A stretch of 64,000 bases of DNA. Origin: Candidatus Poribacteria bacterium (GTDB lineage Bacteria; Poribacteria; WGA-4E; WGA-3G). The stretch spans positions 201 through 64,200 of the forward strand of contig PYJC01000177.1 in NCBI GenBank assembly GCA_003635255.1, written 5' to 3'. Below are positions 14,338 through 64,000 of the stretch, piece by piece. Under the pieces are notes generated by a model. The model worked only from the letters and a program-made list of their open reading frames with translations, made no database searches and was not told where the DNA came from. Every line of letters starts with the position of its first letter. Position 1 is the stretch's first letter. The translations under genes and the position numbers were made by a program.

Positions 14338-14521
14338 CTTGCTAAAAAATGGGGAAAATGCTATACTATAAGGAAGGTAGTGGGAAGGGATGGAACCCCT
14401 TCCCGTGCCAAGTATTGAAAAATCACAGAATCCAATCCGGTTTTCGCATTGGCATTTTTATTTTAACACCTTCCTGTAGAAATGTCAAGCGAGGTCCCCA
14501 AACCTATAGGAGCTTGACATT
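14338..14521. promoter_or_regulatory. Divergent leader of GIY-YIG element, copy 1
   Basis: About 180 bp nearly identical to 35358-35537. From left to right it has CTTGCTAAAAAATGGGGAAA next to the minus-strand start, an AT-rich stretch, a hairpin GGGAAGGG/CCCTTCCC with variable loop, CATTGGCATTTTTATTTTAA, and CCTATAGGAG ahead of the plus-strand start. It presumably drives genes on both sides. Confidence 0.7.
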
Positions 14522-15376
14522 ATGGGTTTCGTCTACATGATCACGAATGACATCAATTCTAAAGCATACATCGGCATCTGTATCCATCCACCTGAGAAAA
14601 CGAGAATCAAAGCCCATCTTTCTGGGCGTGGCAATCAGGGTATAGCCGACGATATCAATATCTATGGCAAAGATGCCTTTACCTATGAAATCCTTGAAGC
14701 AAACGTCTTTGATGAACTTCTGCCTGATCTTGAAAAGGCGTATATCGCCAAATTTAAAACTGTCCATCCGCATGGGTATAATCTCACATCTGGCGGTGAG
14801 GCTGCTAAAACGATTTCTGATGAGACGCGTTGTAAAATCTCTGAAGCACACAAAGGTAAATCACTTTCCGCTGAACACCGTCGTAAAATATCTCAAGGAG
14901 GTAAAGGTCGAAAGTTTCTCATAGGACATCGCCGCAAACTCTCTGAAGCCATGAAAGGTGAAAAGAACCATCAATTTGGCGAAACGCATTCTGAAGAAAC
15001 ACGTCGGAAAATGTCTGAAGCACAGAAAGGTAAAAAAAACCATTTTTATGGCAAAACGCTTTCTGAAGAACATCGCCGTAAAATATCTCAAGCGAACAAA
15101 GGCCGAAAGCATTCTGAAGAATCCCTCCGTAAAATGTCTGAAGCACAAAAAGGCAGAACACTTTCTGCTGAACACCGTCGTAAAATATCTCAAGCTCTGA
15201 CGGGTGAAAAGCACCCAAACTTACATCCGGAGCACATACGAGCGCGTAATTATTTCTTTTCTCTACCGTCTGCTATGCCTTTAAAAGAGAGAAGAAAGTT
15301 GCTCCGTACAGCATTCCGAAATATTCATAGAAACACTATCTATCACTGGGTGCGCAAATGGACATCAACTGCCTAA
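14522..15376 (+). CDS. GIY-YIG homing endonuclease with NUMOD3 repeats, copy 1
   Basis: 284 residues with TAGGAG before the ATG. GIY-YIG domain at 1-95: FVYMIT, AYIGI, Arg and His in TRIKAHL, Glu in DLEKAYI, and the closing GYNLTSGGE. Residues about 98-235 hold seven NUMOD3-type DNA-binding repeats (SEETRRKMSEAQKG and variants). A C-terminal helical segment ends in NTIYHWVRKW. This is the architecture of free-standing homing enzymes of the SegA/I-TevI kind. It is encoded opposite to the tail genes and splits them, with a second copy at 35928. Confidence 0.88.
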   Translation: MGFVYMITNDINSKAYIGICIHPPEKTRIKAHLSGRGNQGIADDINIYGKDAFTYEILEANVFDELLPDLEKAYIAKFKTVHPHGYNLTSGGEAAKTISDETRCKISEAHKGKSLSAEHRRKISQGGKGRKFLIGHRRKLSEAMKGEKNHQFGETHSEETRRKMSEAQKGKKNHFYGKTLSEEHRRKISQANKGRKHSEESLRKMSEAQKGRTLSAEHRRKISQALTGEKHPNLHPEHIRARNYFFSLPSAMPLKERRKLLRTAFRNIHRNTIYHWVRKWTSTA

Positions 15377-31111: not shown

Positions 31112-31723
31112 CTACACCTCCAGTTGCTTTTCGACGTATTCGTATAGTACTTGTGCTTCGATAGATGCTTTAGACTTTGGTAGATATTCCTGTGCAGTTA
31201 GTCCGTGATTGAGGGCATGTACAAAGGCTACACGGTGACCGAATTCACAGGGGGCGCACTGTCCCGGAAGTGCTGTTCGTGCTTGGTTTCCGAGTGTTGT
31301 TCGGGCTGGAACGGAGTTGAGTACAATGTGTGCGGAGACTTTTGCGATTTCGCAGATAGAGAGTGTTGAAGCGATAGCGTCTAAATCCATAATCGACGGT
31401 TTACACGGAATTAAGACAAGGTTCGCGGCGTTTGCTACATCGAGAGCGTCATGTCCGGCATTGGGGGGTGTATCAAGGATCGCAAGGGTTGCTCCGTTAT
31501 CTTTGGCTGTTTTCAGCCACTGTTGGACACGGGATGCGGGTGTTGCGATGATAGCTGGTGATTCAGCGTCTCGATAGTCTCCCCATTTTGCCGCAGATGC
31601 TTGGGGGTCTAAGTCAATGAGAATAGGCGTGTGCCCGGCTTTTTCTGCGGCGACCGAGATATGGGTTGCAAGTGTCGTTTTTCCAGTGCCACCTTTTCGG
31701 CTCATGATTGCTATTGTTTTCAT
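31112..31723 (-). CDS. parA: ParA-family partition ATPase (short type Ib)
   Basis: 203 residues from the ATG at 31721-31723, chosen for AAGGAAAG upstream; the longer frame would add an unlikely N-terminus. Deviant Walker A KGGTGKTT with the signature Lys (residues 9-16), Walker A' LIDLDPQAS and Walker B LAILDTPP are present. There is no N-terminal HTH, as in type Ib ParA. It moves DNA apart at division together with the RHH partner. Plasmids and phage-plasmids carry such pairs. Three 17-bp-spaced repeats lie just upstream. Confidence 0.85.
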   Translation of the reverse strand: MKTIAIMSRKGGTGKTTLATHISVAAEKAGHTPILIDLDPQASAAKWGDYRDAESPAIIATPASRVQQWLKTAKDNGATLAILDTPPNAGHDALDVANAANLVLIPCKPSIMDLDAIASTLSICEIAKVSAHIVLNSVPARTTLGNQARTALPGQCAPCEFGHRVAFVHALNHGLTAQEYLPKSKASIEAQVLYEYVEKQLEV

Positions 31724-31740
31724 GTTGTCTTTCCTTCTTT

Positions 31741-31787
31741 GTTTTATATGCAACGGTGTTTTATATGCAACATTATTTACAATGCAA
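31741..31787. repeat. 17-bp iteron-like repeats upstream of parA
   Basis: GTTTTATATGCAAC at 31741-31754 and again at 31758-31771, then a degenerate ATTTACAATGCAAC at 31775-31787/8, all in a 17-bp register. They are candidates for the centromere or operator bound by the RHH protein. Confidence 0.65.
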
Positions 31788-31788
31788 C

Positions 31789-31820
31789 TGAAGTGCATAC
31801 GCTTATTTAGACCACAATTT
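31789..31820 (+). repeat. Direct repeat matching the MITE-like end at 20851
   Basis: TGAAGTGCATACGCTTATTT then AGACCACAATTT, two mismatches from 20851-20882 and in the same orientation. Only this end is present; the other inverted end seen at 20927-20939 is missing. Confidence 0.7.
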
Positions 31821-31832
31821 CGCAAAAACGGT

Positions 31833-32171
31833 TTATCTATTGTATTCCGACTCGGTGAGTCGCCAACCTATTCTCTGTTTACCTGATTTACTTCGCAAAG
31901 ACTCAACCCGACCCTCATCTTCCAACTTTTCAAGAATTTCCCTATGTATTCTACCGGGGGACTTTCCTTTTTTCCGTTTTTTCTCGTATGTTCCCATTTC
32001 TTCACCTATATATGTAGCCTCAATATATGCATGTCCACCATCCGGATCAGGTTTACACTTCTTAGGAGGAATGTCTACATATTCGCTCTCTTGTGCGTTC
32101 TTTAGAACATCTATGACTACGTCCTTAAGTAGTCCTATCGCTTGATCTGTGCGTAATCTTACGTGATCCAT
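31833..32171 (-). CDS. Winged-helix DNA-binding protein
   Basis: 112 residues. Residues about 70-110, PGRIHREILEKLEDEGRVES then LRSKSGKQRIGWRL, form a winged-helix end with a basic wing. The N-terminal half is mixed helix/strand. Located just upstream of the partition genes, so perhaps a regulator of this locus. No close family recognised. Confidence 0.5.
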   Translation of the reverse strand: MDHVRLRTDQAIGLLKDVVIDVLKNAQESEYVDIPPKKCKPDPDGGHAYIEATYIGEEMGTYEKKRKKGKSPGRIHREILEKLEDEGRVESLRSKSGKQRIGWRLTESEYNR

Positions 32172-32220: not shown

Positions 32221-32337
32221 TTAATCGTCAAATAACCCAAGTTGATCGGTTGTTGATTTGCCACGCGCAAGCGGTGTATCAAATTTGTTGATGTTCAGTG
32301 CAGAAGCAAACGTTGGGTCTTGTACTTTGACGAACAT
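32221..32337 (-). CDS. 38-residue protein
   Basis: MFVKVQDPTFASALNINKFD then TPLARGKSTTDQLGLFDD. A textbook AAAGGAG lies 6 bases before the ATG, and the promoter-like element found ahead of the GIY-YIG genes lies upstream in the matching orientation. Acidic end, no known family. Probably a real small gene. Confidence 0.6.
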   Translation of the reverse strand: MFVKVQDPTFASALNINKFDTPLARGKSTTDQLGLFDD

Positions 32338-32480
32338 TTTGACTCCTTTTCGGCTTGACGTGCATCGGCATCGGTGTTAAAATTAAAATGCCAATACATC
32401 GAAATAGCCTTTCGTTTTTGGTTTGGGGAGGTGACCGCCTCCCCTTCTCTATTATAATCTATTATCTATTTTCACAACTT
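32338..32480 (-). promoter_or_regulatory. Promoter-like element related to the GIY-YIG leaders, with hairpin
   Basis: On the minus strand it reads ATTGGCATTTTAATTTTAAC ACC then GTCAAGC, close to the CATTGGCATTTTTATTTTAA and GTCAAGC parts of the leaders at 14338 and 35358, ahead of the 38-residue gene. A hairpin GGGGAGG (32425-32431) with CCTCCCC (32438-32444) lies beyond it. Confidence 0.5.
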
Positions 32481-32518
32481 TTTGTCAAGCAACAATTCAA
32501 TGGTCTTGATGCCATGTG

Positions 32519-35353: not shown

Positions 35354-35537
35354 TTTTTTCTTGCTAAAAAGTGGGGAAAATGGTACAATAGAAGGGATAA
35401 GTGGGAAGGGGCGCAACCCTTCCCGTGCCAAGTATTGAAAAACCTAACGACTAAGCTGGATTTCGCATTGGCATTTTTATTTTAACACCTTCCTGTTGAA
35501 ATGTCAAGCGAGGTCCCCAAACCTATAGGAGCTTGAC
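35354..35537. promoter_or_regulatory. Divergent leader of GIY-YIG element, copy 2
   Basis: Nearly identical to 14338-14521. The hairpin stem GGGAAGGG/CCCTTCCC is kept while its loop differs (TTGCGC here, GTTCCA in copy 1, read on the minus strand), and CATTGGCATTTTTATTTTAA and CCTATAGGAG are identical. Confidence 0.7.
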
Positions 35538-35876
35538 ATGTTTATGACCCGTCCAACTTTCGCGCTCTCCGTTTCGGTGGGGCTTCAGCCCTCACAGGTG
35601 CACGCGCGTCTCACCGCAGAACAGCAACGCGGTTTTCGTCCGGTTCGGTATGAGAATCAGTATCTTCGAGGCTACCATTGGTGGATCTTTCCAAACTACG
35701 TGGATAACATTTACTCGAAAGTCTATGCCAGGCTGAATATCTTCGGCGATCTCGTTGTCGGTAGAGGTGCATGGACACGCTTGGTCTGTATTAAGAACGG
35801 CAGACTGACACTGAGTCCATTCATTTCTGAGGATGTTGTTTCCGCATCCGATGAGCGGTTGCTTGTTTGCCTGTAA
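35538..35876 (+). CDS. Hypothetical protein captured between leader and endonuclease
   Basis: 112 residues using the TAGGAG site of the conserved leader. Soluble and aromatic-rich (GYHWWIFPNYVDNIYSKVYA); no family recognised. Copy 1 of the element has the endonuclease directly behind the leader, so this gene is an extra cassette in copy 2. Confidence 0.5.
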   Translation: MFMTRPTFALSVSVGLQPSQVHARLTAEQQRGFRPVRYENQYLRGYHWWIFPNYVDNIYSKVYARLNIFGDLVVGRGAWTRLVCIKNGRLTLSPFISEDVVSASDERLLVCL

Positions 35877-35927: not shown

Positions 35928-36731
35928 ATGGGTTTCGTCTACATGATCACCAACGACATCAATTCTAAAGCATACATCGGTATCTGTATCCATCCACCTA
36001 AGAAAACGAGAATCAAAGACCATCTTTCCGGGCGTGGCAGTCGGCTTGTTGCTGCTGCCGTTAAGAAATATGGCAAAGATGCTTTTACTTACGAAATCCT
36101 TGAGGCAGATGTCTTTGATGAATTCTTACCCGATTTAGAGGTTGCATATATTGCTAAATTTAATACTGTTGCACCTCACGGCTATAACCTCAATTCTGGG
36201 GGGAACCACGCTATACCGTCCGAGAATACGCGTCGCAAAATGTCTGAAGTACATAAAAGTAGAAAGTCTGGAGCCCAAAAGGGTGAAAAACATCCTTTCT
36301 TTGGTAAAACACATACCGCGGCTACGCGTCGTAAAATGTCTAAAGCTAACAAAGGTAGAAAGCATACCGCGGCTACGCGTCATAAAATCTCTGAAACCAA
36401 GAAAGGTAAAAAACTTACCGAGAGACATCGTCATAAAATCTCTGAGACCTTGAAAGGCAGAAAGCATACCGCGGCTACGCGTCATAAAATCTCTGAGGCA
36501 CATAAGGGTGAAAAACATCCTTTCTTTGGCAAAACACATATCGCGGCTACGCGTCGTAAAATCTCTGAAGCAAAAAAGCATCCAGATCATGCTGCTGCGC
36601 GTGAATATTTCTTTTCACTCTCTCCCGATATGCCACTTACAGAAAAAAGAAAATTACTTTTCACAACATTTTCAAACGTTTCCCAACCCACAATTTACAG
36701 ATGGGTCAAGAAATGGCAATCATCCGATTAG
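35928..36731 (+). CDS. GIY-YIG homing endonuclease with NUMOD3 repeats, copy 2
   Basis: 267 residues with AAAGGAG before the ATG. The first 95 residues are almost identical to copy 1 (MGFVYMITNDINSKAYIGIC shared), with the same Arg/His and Glu positions. Six NUMOD3-type repeats (TAATRRKMSKANKGRK and variants) and a C-terminal helix (TIYRWVKKW) follow. It lies opposite to the tail genes, between the tail-chaperone frames and the tape measure, a common site for intruding homing genes. Confidence 0.88.
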   Translation: MGFVYMITNDINSKAYIGICIHPPKKTRIKDHLSGRGSRLVAAAVKKYGKDAFTYEILEADVFDEFLPDLEVAYIAKFNTVAPHGYNLNSGGNHAIPSENTRRKMSEVHKSRKSGAQKGEKHPFFGKTHTAATRRKMSKANKGRKHTAATRHKISETKKGKKLTERHRHKISETLKGRKHTAATRHKISEAHKGEKHPFFGKTHIAATRRKISEAKKHPDHAAAREYFFSLSPDMPLTEKRKLLFTTFSNVSQPTIYRWVKKWQSSD

Positions 36732-59917: not shown

Positions 59918-60481
59918 CTAATACTCCTCAGCAAACATAACAACGAGAACACGGTAAGCGTTGAGGGGGTCCGCCGCGCGCGCCTTCATAGACGCGTCCT
60001 CGTAGTAATTAATTTGCCAATAGATTTTCGGGATACCGTCAAGTTCGATACACCCAAAATCATGCTCACCGTAGGGATCGTTGTCCTGGGTGAAGTTATC
60101 GAAAGCGATAATCTTGTCAAAAAGCACCGCCTTCGTCTCCGCCGCAAGGTTCTCGACGGTCGAAGTCATGAACGCCCTGCCATCGGGTCGCGGCACCATG
60201 AAGACGGCTTTTCGGAAAAGGTCATTTCTCAGTTGAATGCTTTTAGCCAGCGCGTCCGGATTATCAACTCGGTCATAGCGGATTTCATAGACAGCGAGTC
60301 TCGACACCAGATTAACTACCTCTGTGAAGTCGAGCGTGTCAACGTTTTGTATCCCGCGCGCCTTAAGCTTAGCCCTGAGCTCTTCAAGGCTATATTGCTC
60401 GGCTTCAAGTTTATATTTCTCGACAGCAGATGCTGGCTGCTGTTCTGTTTTCGATAAGAAGTTCAAACCATTTTTTGACAT
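59918..60481 (-). CDS. DUF3768-like protein with N-terminal helical domain (fused form)
   Basis: 187 residues with AGGAGG before the ATG. Residues about 30-75 (LEELRAKLKARGIQNVDTLD) are a helical domain shared with the gene at 61202. Residues about 85-187 (FDNFTQDNDPYGEHDFG, IYWQINYYEDAS, YRVLVVMFAEEY) match DUF3768, shared with the gene at 61416. So this protein joins both units in one chain. Function unknown. Confidence 0.65.
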   Translation of the reverse strand: MSKNGLNFLSKTEQQPASAVEKYKLEAEQYSLEELRAKLKARGIQNVDTLDFTEVVNLVSRLAVYEIRYDRVDNPDALAKSIQLRNDLFRKAVFMVPRPDGRAFMTSTVENLAAETKAVLFDKIIAFDNFTQDNDPYGEHDFGCIELDGIPKIYWQINYYEDASMKARAADPLNAYRVLVVMFAEEY

Positions 60482-60493
60482 TTGTAAATCCTC

Positions 60494-60868
60494 CTAATCC
60501 CATCCGAACCGCTTGCGCCAGTTAAATATCGTTTTTTCGGAAGCATTGACGACTTTGGCAGTGTGTTTGGATGCGTCTCCCTTCCGCATCCCAGCAGCAC
60601 GGGCATCGTGGTACGTGGATTTCGCAAGTGCGATCAGGTCGCTACTGTCACGTTCAAGGTCGCGGGTGGCTTTTCTGCGGAGGCTTCTGTCGCCGGTGAA
60701 GCTGAACGCATCGAGAGCCTTGTCCCATTCGCCTTTCGCTTGCCATTGGTGGACGGTATTCTCGCGGACACCGACCGCATCGGCAATCTCCTTAACAGTT
60801 TTATCCGGTTCGTTTATGAAGAGATAGGCAACCGCGCCCATCTTGTAATAGTTAAAATTCTTGGGCAT
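60494..60868 (-). CDS. Double HTH DNA-binding protein
   Basis: 124 residues with GGAGG before the ATG. Two helix-turn-helix segments, KTVKEIADAVGVRENTVHQW (24-43) and HTAKVVNASEKTIFNWRKRF (102-121), each followed by a Trp-rich end as in terminase small or transposase-like HTHs. Probable regulator or DNA-marking protein of the early operon. Confidence 0.55.
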   Translation of the reverse strand: MPKNFNYYKMGAVAYLFINEPDKTVKEIADAVGVRENTVHQWQAKGEWDKALDAFSFTGDRSLRRKATRDLERDSSDLIALAKSTYHDARAAGMRKGDASKHTAKVVNASEKTIFNWRKRFGWD

Positions 60869-61415: not shown

Positions 61416-61772
61416 TCAATATTCCTCTGAAAGCATGATAACGAGGACGCGGTAGGCGTTAAGTTTATCCTCTGCCCCGAATTCCATATCGGCATCCTCA
61501 TAGTAGTCTATCTTCCAAAAGACCTTATGCGTTTCATCTTCATCCGTCATCAGATTAGAAACCGAGACGGTGACACTCCCAAAATCGTGATCCCCGTAGG
61601 GATCGTTGTCTTCGGTAAAGTTATCGAACTCGGCGATCTCCTTGTAAATCCAAGCACACACCGCGCTGCCGAGACTCGCCACGCCGGGGGTCATGACGGC
61701 TTTGCCGTCGGGGTGGGGCGCGAACATGACAACTTTTCGGAAGGCATCATTTTTCGCTTGAATAGTGTCCAT
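61416..61772 (-). CDS. DUF3768-like protein (stand-alone form)
   Basis: 118 residues from the ATG at 61770-61772 (AAAGGA upstream). FDNFTEDNDPYGDHDFGSVT, FWKIDYYEDADM and YRVLVIMLSEEY match DUF3768, a small domain common in mobile elements and phages. Paralogue of the C-terminal half of the protein at 59918. Confidence 0.65.
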   Translation of the reverse strand: MDTIQAKNDAFRKVVMFAPHPDGKAVMTPGVASLGSAVCAWIYKEIAEFDNFTEDNDPYGDHDFGSVTVSVSNLMTDEDETHKVFWKIDYYEDADMEFGAEDKLNAYRVLVIMLSEEY

Positions 61773-61831
61773 CAGTATATTTCCTTTTGTTTGCGACAAG
61801 GCGAGGGTTTGAGACCTCGCCCTGCTGGTTT

Positions 61832-62220: not shown

Positions 62221-62410
62221 ATTTTTGCATGAGCACTGCTCTGACGCGCAGGCAGTGTTGACATTGACATCTCCGATGGTACCGATGTTGCGGTGTCGGA
62301 GACCTGGAGCATTCACCGCAGGCAATAATTTCGCCATTCTTGAACCGGGCATCCGCGTCGGTTTCTGGCACGAGGCGGCTGCATCGGGTGCAGATGGGTT
62401 GCTGCTTCAT
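62219..62410 (-). CDS. Small zinc-ribbon protein
   Basis: 63 residues with AGGAGGT before the ATG at 62408-62410. CTRC (8-11) and CGEC (32-35) form a four-Cys ribbon, then CQCQHC near the end. Its start overlaps the stop of the gene upstream by 4 bases. Confidence 0.55.
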   Translation of the reverse strand: MKQQPICTRCSRLVPETDADARFKNGEIIACGECSRSPTPQHRYHRRCQCQHCLRVRAVLMQK

Positions 62411-62718
62411 CGTTGACCTCCTGGGAACCATTCTTTTGTGTAGGGGACAGTATTCCGAGCGCAACCGCCCCAGGGCCGGATAAGACCGCATCGCTGGCAC
62501 CGTTGCCACATCAGCCGTTGATGGCGTTTGATGTCGGTATCGGTTTTGGGGATGCCGGTGAAGTCGGGGGCACCGCAACTTGAGGTTGCAGTGCCGTTTG
62601 GTGAAATGTGGACCCATCGCTTTTTCACAGAATCCCATTGCGGGGATGCGATCCAAGCGGATTTGAGATACGCCCGCGCCAGTTCAGTGAGCCCGGCAAG
62701 AGACATCAGCTTTTTCAT
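62407..62718 (-). CDS. Hypothetical early-type protein with CxxC motif
   Basis: 103 residues with AAAGGAGGT before the ATG. Helical start (LAGLTELARAYLKSAWIASP), Trp/Arg-rich middle, then WQRCQRCGLIRPWGGC, a possible metal site. It overlaps both neighbours by 4 bases. Confidence 0.5.
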   Translation of the reverse strand: MKKLMSLAGLTELARAYLKSAWIASPQWDSVKKRWVHISPNGTATSSCGAPDFTGIPKTDTDIKRHQRLMWQRCQRCGLIRPWGGCARNTVPYTKEWFPGGQR

Positions 62719-63077
62719 GCTGTACCTCCTTTGAGGGCAAACTGGAGTTGCGAGCCGTAGCCCTGCCGAAACGCGATCTTGCGATCACGATAATAGCCGC
62801 GCAGGGTTTCCAAGAGCGCATCTCTGGAAAAGGAAGCGCATTCTTGACGGACGGTGACGAAGATTTCATCAAAGATAAAATAGCCGTTGCCACCAGGGTA
62901 GTATTCGGTCAATTTATGGAGAGCTGCCAGAACGGGGCAGACCGGAACCGGGGGCTCCGATGGCGGCGGTTCAGGAAGGCGTTCAACCCGCGTGCGGATA
63001 TGGCGAGTTGGGAAGCCTTTGGGTTGGATCGCAATTGCACGCGTGCCGTTTTTGCCGTGCAATGTTACAGTAATCAT
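62715..63077 (-). CDS. First gene of the early-type operon, unknown function
   Basis: 120 residues from the ATG at 63077 (GAGG seven bases upstream; another ATG lies two codons earlier but too close to that site). Pro-rich linker (PEPPPSEPPVPVCP) and then a winged-helix-like C-terminus (GYFIFDEIFVTVRQECASFS to LRGYYRDRKIAFRQGYGS). It lies behind the promoter at 63206-63234 with a ~120-base structured leader. Confidence 0.5.
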   Translation of the reverse strand: MITVTLHGKNGTRAIAIQPKGFPTRHIRTRVERLPEPPPSEPPVPVCPVLAALHKLTEYYPGGNGYFIFDEIFVTVRQECASFSRDALLETLRGYYRDRKIAFRQGYGSQLQFALKGGTA

Positions 63078-63095
63078 AATCATACCTCATAAAGT

Positions 63096-63124
63096 TTGAC
63101 TTTCGCCGCTGCATGAGATATAAT
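63096..63124 (+). promoter_or_regulatory. Sigma-70 promoter for antisense RNA
   Basis: TTGACT (63096-63101), 17-base spacer, TATAAT (63119-63124). Start expected near 63131, directly before the hairpin-rich segment. Confidence 0.8.
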
Positions 63125-63130
63125 TAAAGC

Positions 63131-63199
63131 AAGCGGCGCAAGCCGTGGTTTTTCCGCGGCGGGGGACTCATTTAGCGGTGAACCCCTGCCGTTTTTCTT
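63131..63199 (+). ncRNA. Short structured antisense RNA opposite the operon leader
   Basis: Begins behind the promoter at 63096-63124. First stem CGGC-GCAA-GCCG (63134-63145, GNRA loop). Alternative stem CCGTGG/CCGCGG. Terminator stem of 9 bp, CGGCGGGGG (63157-63165) with CCCCTGCCG (63183-63191), then TTTTTCTT. About 65 nt, fully complementary to the minus-strand leader. Loop sequence AGCGGT can pair with stem bases, suggesting kissing or pseudoknot contacts. Confidence 0.65.
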
Positions 63200-63205
63200 A
63201 TATAT

Positions 63206-63234
63206 ATTATACCACAAAAACCAATAAAAGTCAA
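63206..63234 (-). promoter_or_regulatory. Sigma-70 promoter of the minus-strand operon
   Basis: On the minus strand TTGACT (63229-63234), 17-base spacer, TATAAT (63206-63211). Start expected near 63199, giving a leader that covers the whole antisense RNA gene before the first ATG. Confidence 0.85.
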
Positions 63235-63250
63235 ATAAAAATCAAATAAA

Positions 63251-64000
63251 ATTGCTAAAAAATTGCGTTTTTTTCGTCAAAAATGCACATTTTTTTTGCG
63301 TAAACTGGCGGTTTTTACCTAAATTCCGCTCGGTTGTCTGCTGATCTGATCCGAAAACGCACACCGCGGTCAAAACCTTGTGCTTTCTATCCCACCAAAA
63401 TTAGCAACTTCAATCTATCTATATACAACGCCAGCAGTAACAAAAACGCAGCAGTGGCATGTTATCTGAAATCTTCCCTAACCTTTCATGCCACTGCGGA
63501 ACACCGAGCAAAAAACGCTGACAGGAGACGGGTGTTTTTGTTTTCTTGGAGGTTGAATAATATCTGTCCTTACCGAGACAAGCTGCGACAGGCTGCGACA
63601 GGCTGCGAAAATTTCTGCGAATTGTTTTAAAACATAACTTATATGAAGCGTTAACACCTGCGAAAATTGCGAAAGGTGCAGGGCGTGCCTTATCTTTAAA
63701 AATGCGCACTTCGGCGTTTATTGGGACGTTGCACGAGAGAGGGTGTAGCGGAGGCAGCGCGGGGTGGAAGGCGGGCGGTGGAGTGTAGTGGAATTCCGTG
63801 ACCCGCGACAGCGTTACCTTCTCCTGCCGTAGCAATGCCTGTAGTGTAGTGTAGTGGTAGGCACAAAGTGTAGTGTAGTGACGGCTTCTGCCCTTCCGCT
63901 TCCTGCCGAAACACTGCGCGGGCTTTGCTATTGGCGCGGTGTTTCGGCATTATTCAGAAGTAGGGCAGAACGCCAAAACGCAACGAAACGACTGCCGTGA
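63251..64000. other. Non-coding region with inverted and tandem repeats
   Basis: No supported gene. A/T-rich 63235-63320. Perfect 10-bp inverted repeat CAGTGGCATG (63453-63462) with CATGCCACTG near 63488-63497. Three GCTGCGACAG units near 63585-63612. Tandem GTAGT units near 63841-63880. A 15-bp stem (14 of 15 bases plus one G-T) from GCCGAAACACTGCGC (63905) to GCGCGGTGTTTCGGC (63948). The layout would suit an origin or a recombination site. Confidence 0.45.

Follow-up and report, generated by a model that had tools for sequence, protein, structure and literature searches.

Putative antisense-RNA leader modules over selfish and costly genes in Poribacteria

Phage context of the contig and operon A

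The window, i.e. the whole 64,000-nt stretch of DNA analysed here, corresponds to positions 201–64200 of a 78,675-bp contig from a Candidatus Poribacteria bacterium. The contig encodes the terminase, portal, protease, major head and tape-measure proteins of a tailed phage. This phage is flanked on its left by host-type LRR, dockerin and FlgD proteins and on its right by a tyrosine integrase, a ParA with a ribbon-helix-helix protein and another FlgD-type protein. Two ParA genes located about 41 kb apart (31112–31825 and, at the scale of the window, 72706–73326, L002) flank the phage structural and early genes. The first-pass annotation had proposed that the element is a phage-plasmid. The two ParA genes favour this proposal, whereas the tyrosine integrase, the host-type genes on both flanks and the absence of any recognised replication initiator on the element speak against it, and the element is a candidate phage-plasmid.

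Operon A is located on the minus strand (Table 1), and its designation as an early operon is plausible. P0001, the product of its first gene, has no Pfam match; its AlphaFold2 model includes a C-terminal winged helix (pLDDT 80–90) whose fold matches in the PDB are generic winged-helix proteins (E ~1e-2). Only two relatives of P0002 were found in IMG/VR, one of them being the contig studied here. In L072 (G030:C163, at about 1.6–1.8 kb), the leader that precedes the P0002 homologue coincides exactly with an assembly gap (a run of N). The operon also includes genes for two DUF3768 proteins (59918–60481 and 61416–61799; Pfam 2.7e-20 and 1.1e-23) and for an HTH protein (60494–60868) of an HTH_23/Terminase_5-like family. 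Genes of this family are also found in chromosomal loci elsewhere as the first gene under leaders of the countertranscribed RNA (ctRNA) type described below (L138 8162–9586; L139 6970–7764; L136 9727–10140).

Adenine phosphoribosyltransferase-like, TPR and other genes lie between the leader region of operon A and the integrase (64181 to about 71.5 kb of contig C177, L002); in G029 and L027, the integrase is close to the leader. At 64498–64598 lies an integrase 3' end truncated to its last 32 codons, which, together with the intervening genes, suggests that cargo inserts at the integrase end. The region between integrase and leader carries tandem 10-bp repeats GACARGCTGC (63577–63606), a perfect 11-bp inverted repeat (63451–63461/63487–63497) and TGTAGTG-type repeats (63764–63880), which are possible att arms or a possible origin. 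An iteron/origin reading of 63.3–64.0 kb was rejected, as short repeats are present there but no Rep.

Table 1. Coordinates (in the window) of the four modules, their parts and the genes under them
Feature	Position	Strand	Evidence and remarks
Module A	63096..63234		
Module A ctRNA promoter	63096..63124	+	TTGACT-17-TATAAT, 11/12 consensus, 17-nt spacer; kept in G029 and L027
Module A predicted ctRNA, ~67 nt	~63131..63197	+	Fold; R1 and R2 model matches
Module A 5' hairpin, GNRA (GCAA) loop	63133..63146	+	GCGGC-GCAA-GCCGU; compensatory G-C to A-U in relatives
Module A predicted intrinsic terminator hairpin and T tail	63156..63197	+	Fold; apical loop invariant in relatives
Module A target-operon promoter	63206..63234	-	TTGACT-17-TATAAT, 11/12 consensus, 17-nt spacer, TG-extended
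Module A target mRNA leader	63084..63199	-	First ~68 nt wholly complementary to the plus RNA
Module A leader stem, 5' arm	63132..63138	-	Within the antisense-covered region
Module A leader stem, 3' arm	63104..63110	-	Pairs with 63132–63138; adjoins the Shine-Dalgarno region
P0001, 122 aa, first gene of operon A	62715..63083	-	Predicted C-terminal winged-helix domain; homologues in G029, L027, G034
P0002, second gene of operon A	62407..62718	-	Small cysteine-containing protein; homologues in four related elements
Module B	32355..32488	+	Convergent promoters, 5' hairpin, terminator GGGGAGGTGACCGCCTCCCC, 12-bp mRNA leader stem
38-aa ORF directly under module B	32221..32337	-	SD AAAAGGAG; followed by gene 31833–32171
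ParA-type ATPase, further down the module B operon	31112..31825	-	PHROG 164 2.5e-35; Pfam AAA_31/CbiA
Module C	35361..35507	-	Minus-strand ctRNA; plus-strand target promoter
Small protein directly under module C	35538..35876	+	Similar proteins under modules in G012, G005, G079
GIY-YIG/NUMOD3 homing endonuclease, second gene under module C	35928..36731	+	Pfam
Module D, near-copy of module C	14339..14488	-	Exposed by similarity to another virus contig; model match
GIY-YIG/NUMOD3 homing endonuclease, direct target of module D	14522..15376	+	Pfam

Convergent promoters and a predicted antisense RNA in module A

Two promoters located on opposite strands and both pointing inward delimit module A. They lie exactly where the first-pass annotation had placed face-to-face sigma-70 promoters. 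Such a pair is far above chance expectation: inward-facing pairs in which each promoter scores at least 11/12 occur once in the 64-kb window and never in 40 dinucleotide shuffles, a looser exact pattern likewise occurs once in the window and never in 100 shuffles, and shuffling the surrounding 400 bp 5000 times never reproduces the pair.

The plus-strand RNA, whose start is placed 7 nt past the -10, folds at -34.3 kcal/mol (z -3.25). The fold includes the GNRA hairpin and the T-tailed terminator stem that the same annotation had read from the letters; the terminator (hairpin 63156–63192) has a basal stem of 9–10 bp, an extra small apical stem and a tail of five T (63193–63197). Termination is predicted to occur at the -10 of the opposing promoter. 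The module thus carries, at the sequence level, the opposite-strand promoter within the target leader that characterizes a cis-encoded antisense RNA, and its product is predicted to be a discrete short RNA ending at an intrinsic terminator.

Conservation of module A in relatives

Homologues of module A were found in the same-genus MAG G029, whose contig C82 aligns with the window over 1388 bp at 74%, and in the virus contig IMG/VR 3300012947_000033. The block extending from the SD to the target promoter (63076–63240) shows ~90% identity in the former and 88% in the latter; the adjoining P0001 coding sequence shows only 66% (G029). Both homologues retain the two promoters and the terminator, and in both the GNRA stem GCGGC/GCCGU has become GCGAC/GUCGU, a compensatory substitution. 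Through one-sided changes, the terminator stem stays paired in both, its apical loop being invariant; both promoters survive, GTCAA being spared by an 11-bp deletion upstream. Relatives breaking both promoters and stems without compensation would have spoken against an antisense RNA; the conservation and the compensatory change instead answer this test in favour of function. The antisense RNA over the operon leader, as first proposed from the letters, is therefore well supported by conserved promoters, compensatory change and the family of same architecture described below.

A search of the phage collection found no DNA resembling 62400–63300. The matches of the minus promoter of the window to many genomes are mostly common promoter sequence rather than homologous modules, and a broad promoter-pattern search chiefly returned ordinary Poribacteria promoters.

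Three other modules in the same window

Besides module A, the only one noted at first, the window carries modules B, C and D, and these four are all the model matches found in the 5.4-Mb source genome. The RNA of module B is nearly identical in G029:C60 and in the virus contig L156, where it lies over different genes. The DNA upstream of the module B -10 cannot be aligned between the window and G029:C60 or L156, yet it is complementary to the 5' arm of the RNA. In the region of the ParA start, a 27-bp stretch (31800–31826) is found exact or near-exact at dozens of sites in related genomes, several of its copies being ~100 bp from contig ends, as if it were a piece of a repeated mobile sequence.

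The small protein encoded directly under module C belongs to a family (GYHWFxYPNExxGLYxKVLARVNMFGDLV; 35538–35876, L163, L179 and L161) that recurs directly or closely under ctRNA leaders. A GIY-YIG/NUMOD3 gene comes next in some copies.

A family of modules in Poribacteria

Weak promoter matches led to full modules in other genomes (two in G034:C103, two in G020:C102 and one in G030:C163), one of the G034:C103 modules being located over homologues of P0001/P0002. The first six modules span 137–141 bp from one -35 to the opposite -35 and have their parts in the same order, with unrelated RNA sequences. A sequence-only model (R1) included module B among its matches, and modules C and D were exposed by similarity to another virus contig. 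A second, covariance model (R2), built from 14 modules, retrieved 31 full-length copies (17 of them outside its training set) in 19 of the 73 genomes of the order at E<=1e-4, a rough threshold since E-values come from short calibrations, and a count from which copies may have been lost because whole genomes were scanned by model search with strict filters. Its extension to all 85 genomes of the phylum (12 extra) added no copies. A few weak model matches (e.g. G030:C29) are devoid of a convincing terminator, and a module-like locus located among chromosomal genes (G045:C43) was left out of the count as it has no T tail.

Across the family, five of the six consensus pairs of the terminator stem change on both sides with pairing kept. 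Rfam 15, searched at gathering score with the window and 15 module loci, gave no match, and a literature search found no paper joining Poribacteria and antisense RNA and none describing the ctRNA cassette. The modules of these uncultured sponge-associated bacteria thus form a family of short antisense-RNA switches that appears not to have been described before.

Target genes under the modules

Several targets are assigned by position only, and transcription start sites are predicted ones. Genes encoding GIY-YIG proteins (Pfam) lie under modules C and D and under modules in G047, G005 and G020:C85, with NUMOD3 in G079; an HNH_5 gene (Pfam) is found in G012. N6_N4_Mtase genes are targets in G011, where they neighbour Endonuclease_7, and in G008 (Pfam), as well as in G081 (by similarity), whereas IS1595 transposase genes (Pfam) are targets in G028 and G063. 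The target in G029:C60 is HSDR_N-like, its Pfam score being just under the cut-off. HTH/Terminase_5-like genes are targets in G023 and, by position, in G077 and G064. The remaining targets are small unknown proteins, the phage operon under module A and the module B set (the 38-aa ORF, an unknown gene and ParA). Recognisable genes for nucleases, methylases, transposases and defence amount, as a raw share, to about half of the targets. A gene encoding a ThsB_TIR (Thoeris-like) protein was also observed under a ctRNA leader (L172, G018:C157:50522–50667).

As one module type lies over endonucleases, methylases, transposases, a TIR gene and a parA operon, its job looks generic. The copy-number or immunity switch put forward in the first-pass annotation fits poorly with such a range of genes.

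Pairing within the leader and folding of the ribosome-binding site

In most copies, a leader stem can form between the complement of the ctRNA 5' end and a segment located just upstream of the SD. As the ctRNA starts after its -10, only the mRNA strand holds both arms of this stem. The pairing energies of cognate arms sum to -307.5, vs a permuted mean of -189 (sd 13), and none of 20,000 permutations reaches this value; for several modules, mainly of the endonuclease subtype, the cognate stem is no better than average in this arm test. Module D folds into a stem that also takes in the -35 complement. Taken together, the arm complementarity of module B, the cognate leader pairing and the covariation of the terminator argue for selection on RNA pairing.

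Equilibrium folding of 16 modules with the antisense region blocked gave a lower accessibility of the ribosome-binding site (RBS) in seven, a higher one in three and no change in six. In G029 and L027, blocking releases an anti-SD, which then pairs with the SD, and the unpaired fraction of the RBS falls from 0.53 to 0.34 and from 0.63 to 0.33, respectively; a drop in accessibility from 0.51 to 0.12 is seen in the leader of an IS1595 transposase. Module A is unchanged because an SD hairpin dominates both states. RBS sequestration therefore appears weak as a general mechanism (lower in 7/16 modules). Attenuation of transcription of the pT181 type was rejected: in the leaders examined by inspection, no hairpin followed by a U run lies between the antisense region and the SD, which makes transcription attenuation unlikely.

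Proposed mechanism and alternative explanations

From the anatomy, conservation, covariation and targets of the family, we infer that the modules are portable ctRNA repressor leaders for selfish or costly genes, a reading to which we give a probability of about 0.7. The process can be viewed as follows. The site would be a ctRNA leader module of ~140 bp, in which a strong promoter located just upstream of the target Shine-Dalgarno would drive a short terminated RNA. This RNA would run back over the first ~60–80 nt of the target mRNA and end at the -10 of the target. As the exact complement of the nascent leader, it would pair with it and remove the 5' arm of the leader stem, leading to lower expression of the downstream gene. 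The block would proceed via refolding of the leader and/or decay of the duplex, aided by collision of convergent polymerases; decay by RNase III or promoter collision may account for some or all of the repression. Copy A would restrain the P0001-P0002 operon, copy B the parA operon and copies C and D the two GIY-YIG endonucleases. Poribacteria harbour many such copies, with diverged RNAs, over selfish genes, genes for nucleases and methylases, and genes of defence or of phages.

Collision might also matter alone, the convergent promoters interfering with each other like P_REV0 and P_M of EcoRI and the short RNA being only a by-product. Convergent consensus promoters are found ~80 bp apart in nearly every copy, and promoters so arranged have been documented to act through collision (PMC3874152, PMC10349824), but collision leaves the conserved hairpins, the covarying terminator, the compensatory GNRA stem and the cognate leader stem unpredicted, so that this explanation appears unlikely. 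The inverted repeat around the ctRNA -10 could instead be an operator for a DNA-binding protein, which would turn the module into a protein-controlled promoter switch; the repeat is indeed centred on the -10 in many copies and several targets are HTH proteins. However, it varies between copies, tracks the ctRNA and not the target, and is retained by module B over three different genes, which renders this possibility very improbable.

Other alternatives concern what is controlled. A phage-plasmid switch, in which the RNA would set the replication or lysogeny of the element, would suit the position of module A between the integrase/repeat-rich region and an operon that opens with a gene for a predicted winged-helix protein, as well as the ParA and ribbon-helix-helix genes; furthermore, parABS phages using RNA-based replication exist (PMC7157519). 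Nevertheless, the family guards mostly genes unrelated to replication, no Rep domain was found in the scanned proteins (the targets being nucleases, methylases, transposases and others) and an integrase and host-type flanking genes are present; such a switch is quite improbable. Silencing of a toxic small ORF, as in type I toxin-antitoxin systems, would fit convergent promoters and an antisense RNA of <80 nt, which are usual for these systems (PMC3874152), and module B directly covers a 38-aa ORF. This ORF appears hydrophilic, unlike a membrane peptide, most targets are ordinary-sized enzymes or regulators and P0001 is a 122-aa protein with a predicted winged helix, so that hardly any weight can be given to this last explanation.

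Under the preferred reading of portable repressor leaders, one RNA device would be reused for the domestication of costly mobile genes, and it would provide a handle on the phages of a hard-to-culture sponge symbiont as well as a set of antisense pairs that have diversified in nature and could be tested directly for cross-talk. It can also be proposed, more tentatively, that this undescribed RNA family acts as a portable, sequence-diversified silencer of selfish and defence genes, whose copies with the same RNA could cross-silence different cargo in trans. If so, trans cross-silencing by RNAs of the module B type (window, G029 and virus contig) would link mobile elements in a network of RNA-based incompatibility or immunity.

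Comparison with known antisense and leader-based systems

Individual plasmids, IS elements and restriction systems are already known to be under antisense control. According to the literature searched, a homologous ctRNA cassette moved among homing endonucleases, methylases, transposases, a TIR gene and phage operons in one uncultured lineage appears unreported. The immunity RNAs c4 of P1 and CI of P4 are small phage RNAs that act on the leader of an early operon and are processed from a same-strand transcript. The RNA of module A would likewise be small, phage-encoded and directed at an early-operon leader, but it is predicted to come from the opposite strand and from its own promoter. In IS10, the antisense RNA-OUT lies over the start of the transposase mRNA and covers the ribosome-binding site. 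IS1595 transposases also carry ctRNA leaders here, whereas the Poribacteria ctRNA ends ~45–70 nt upstream of the ribosome-binding site.

RNAII of pMV158 inhibits the translation of repB (PMC4485353). This RNA and CopA of R1 resemble the RNAs of the modules in being short antisense RNAs with a hairpin and a U-rich tail, directed against the leader of the controlled mRNA. In contrast, the Poribacteria modules have two hairpins, their opposed promoters are set a nearly constant distance apart, and they form one family over many unrelated genes without any rep gene; as no replication gene is controlled, they are not members of a copy-control family. The GIY-YIG and HNH homing endonucleases of T4-type phages are restrained post-transcriptionally by leader hairpins that sequester the RBS (PMC2988022), a functional parallel in which, however, no antisense RNA has been described as regulator. 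The EcoRI system also combines convergent promoters with a short antisense RNA that holds back a DNA-modifying enzyme, Rna0 (88 nt) being transcribed from a reverse promoter inside the coding sequence (PMC3874152). In Poribacteria, by contrast, the reverse promoter is located in a dedicated leader with a terminator, which is reused across gene classes.
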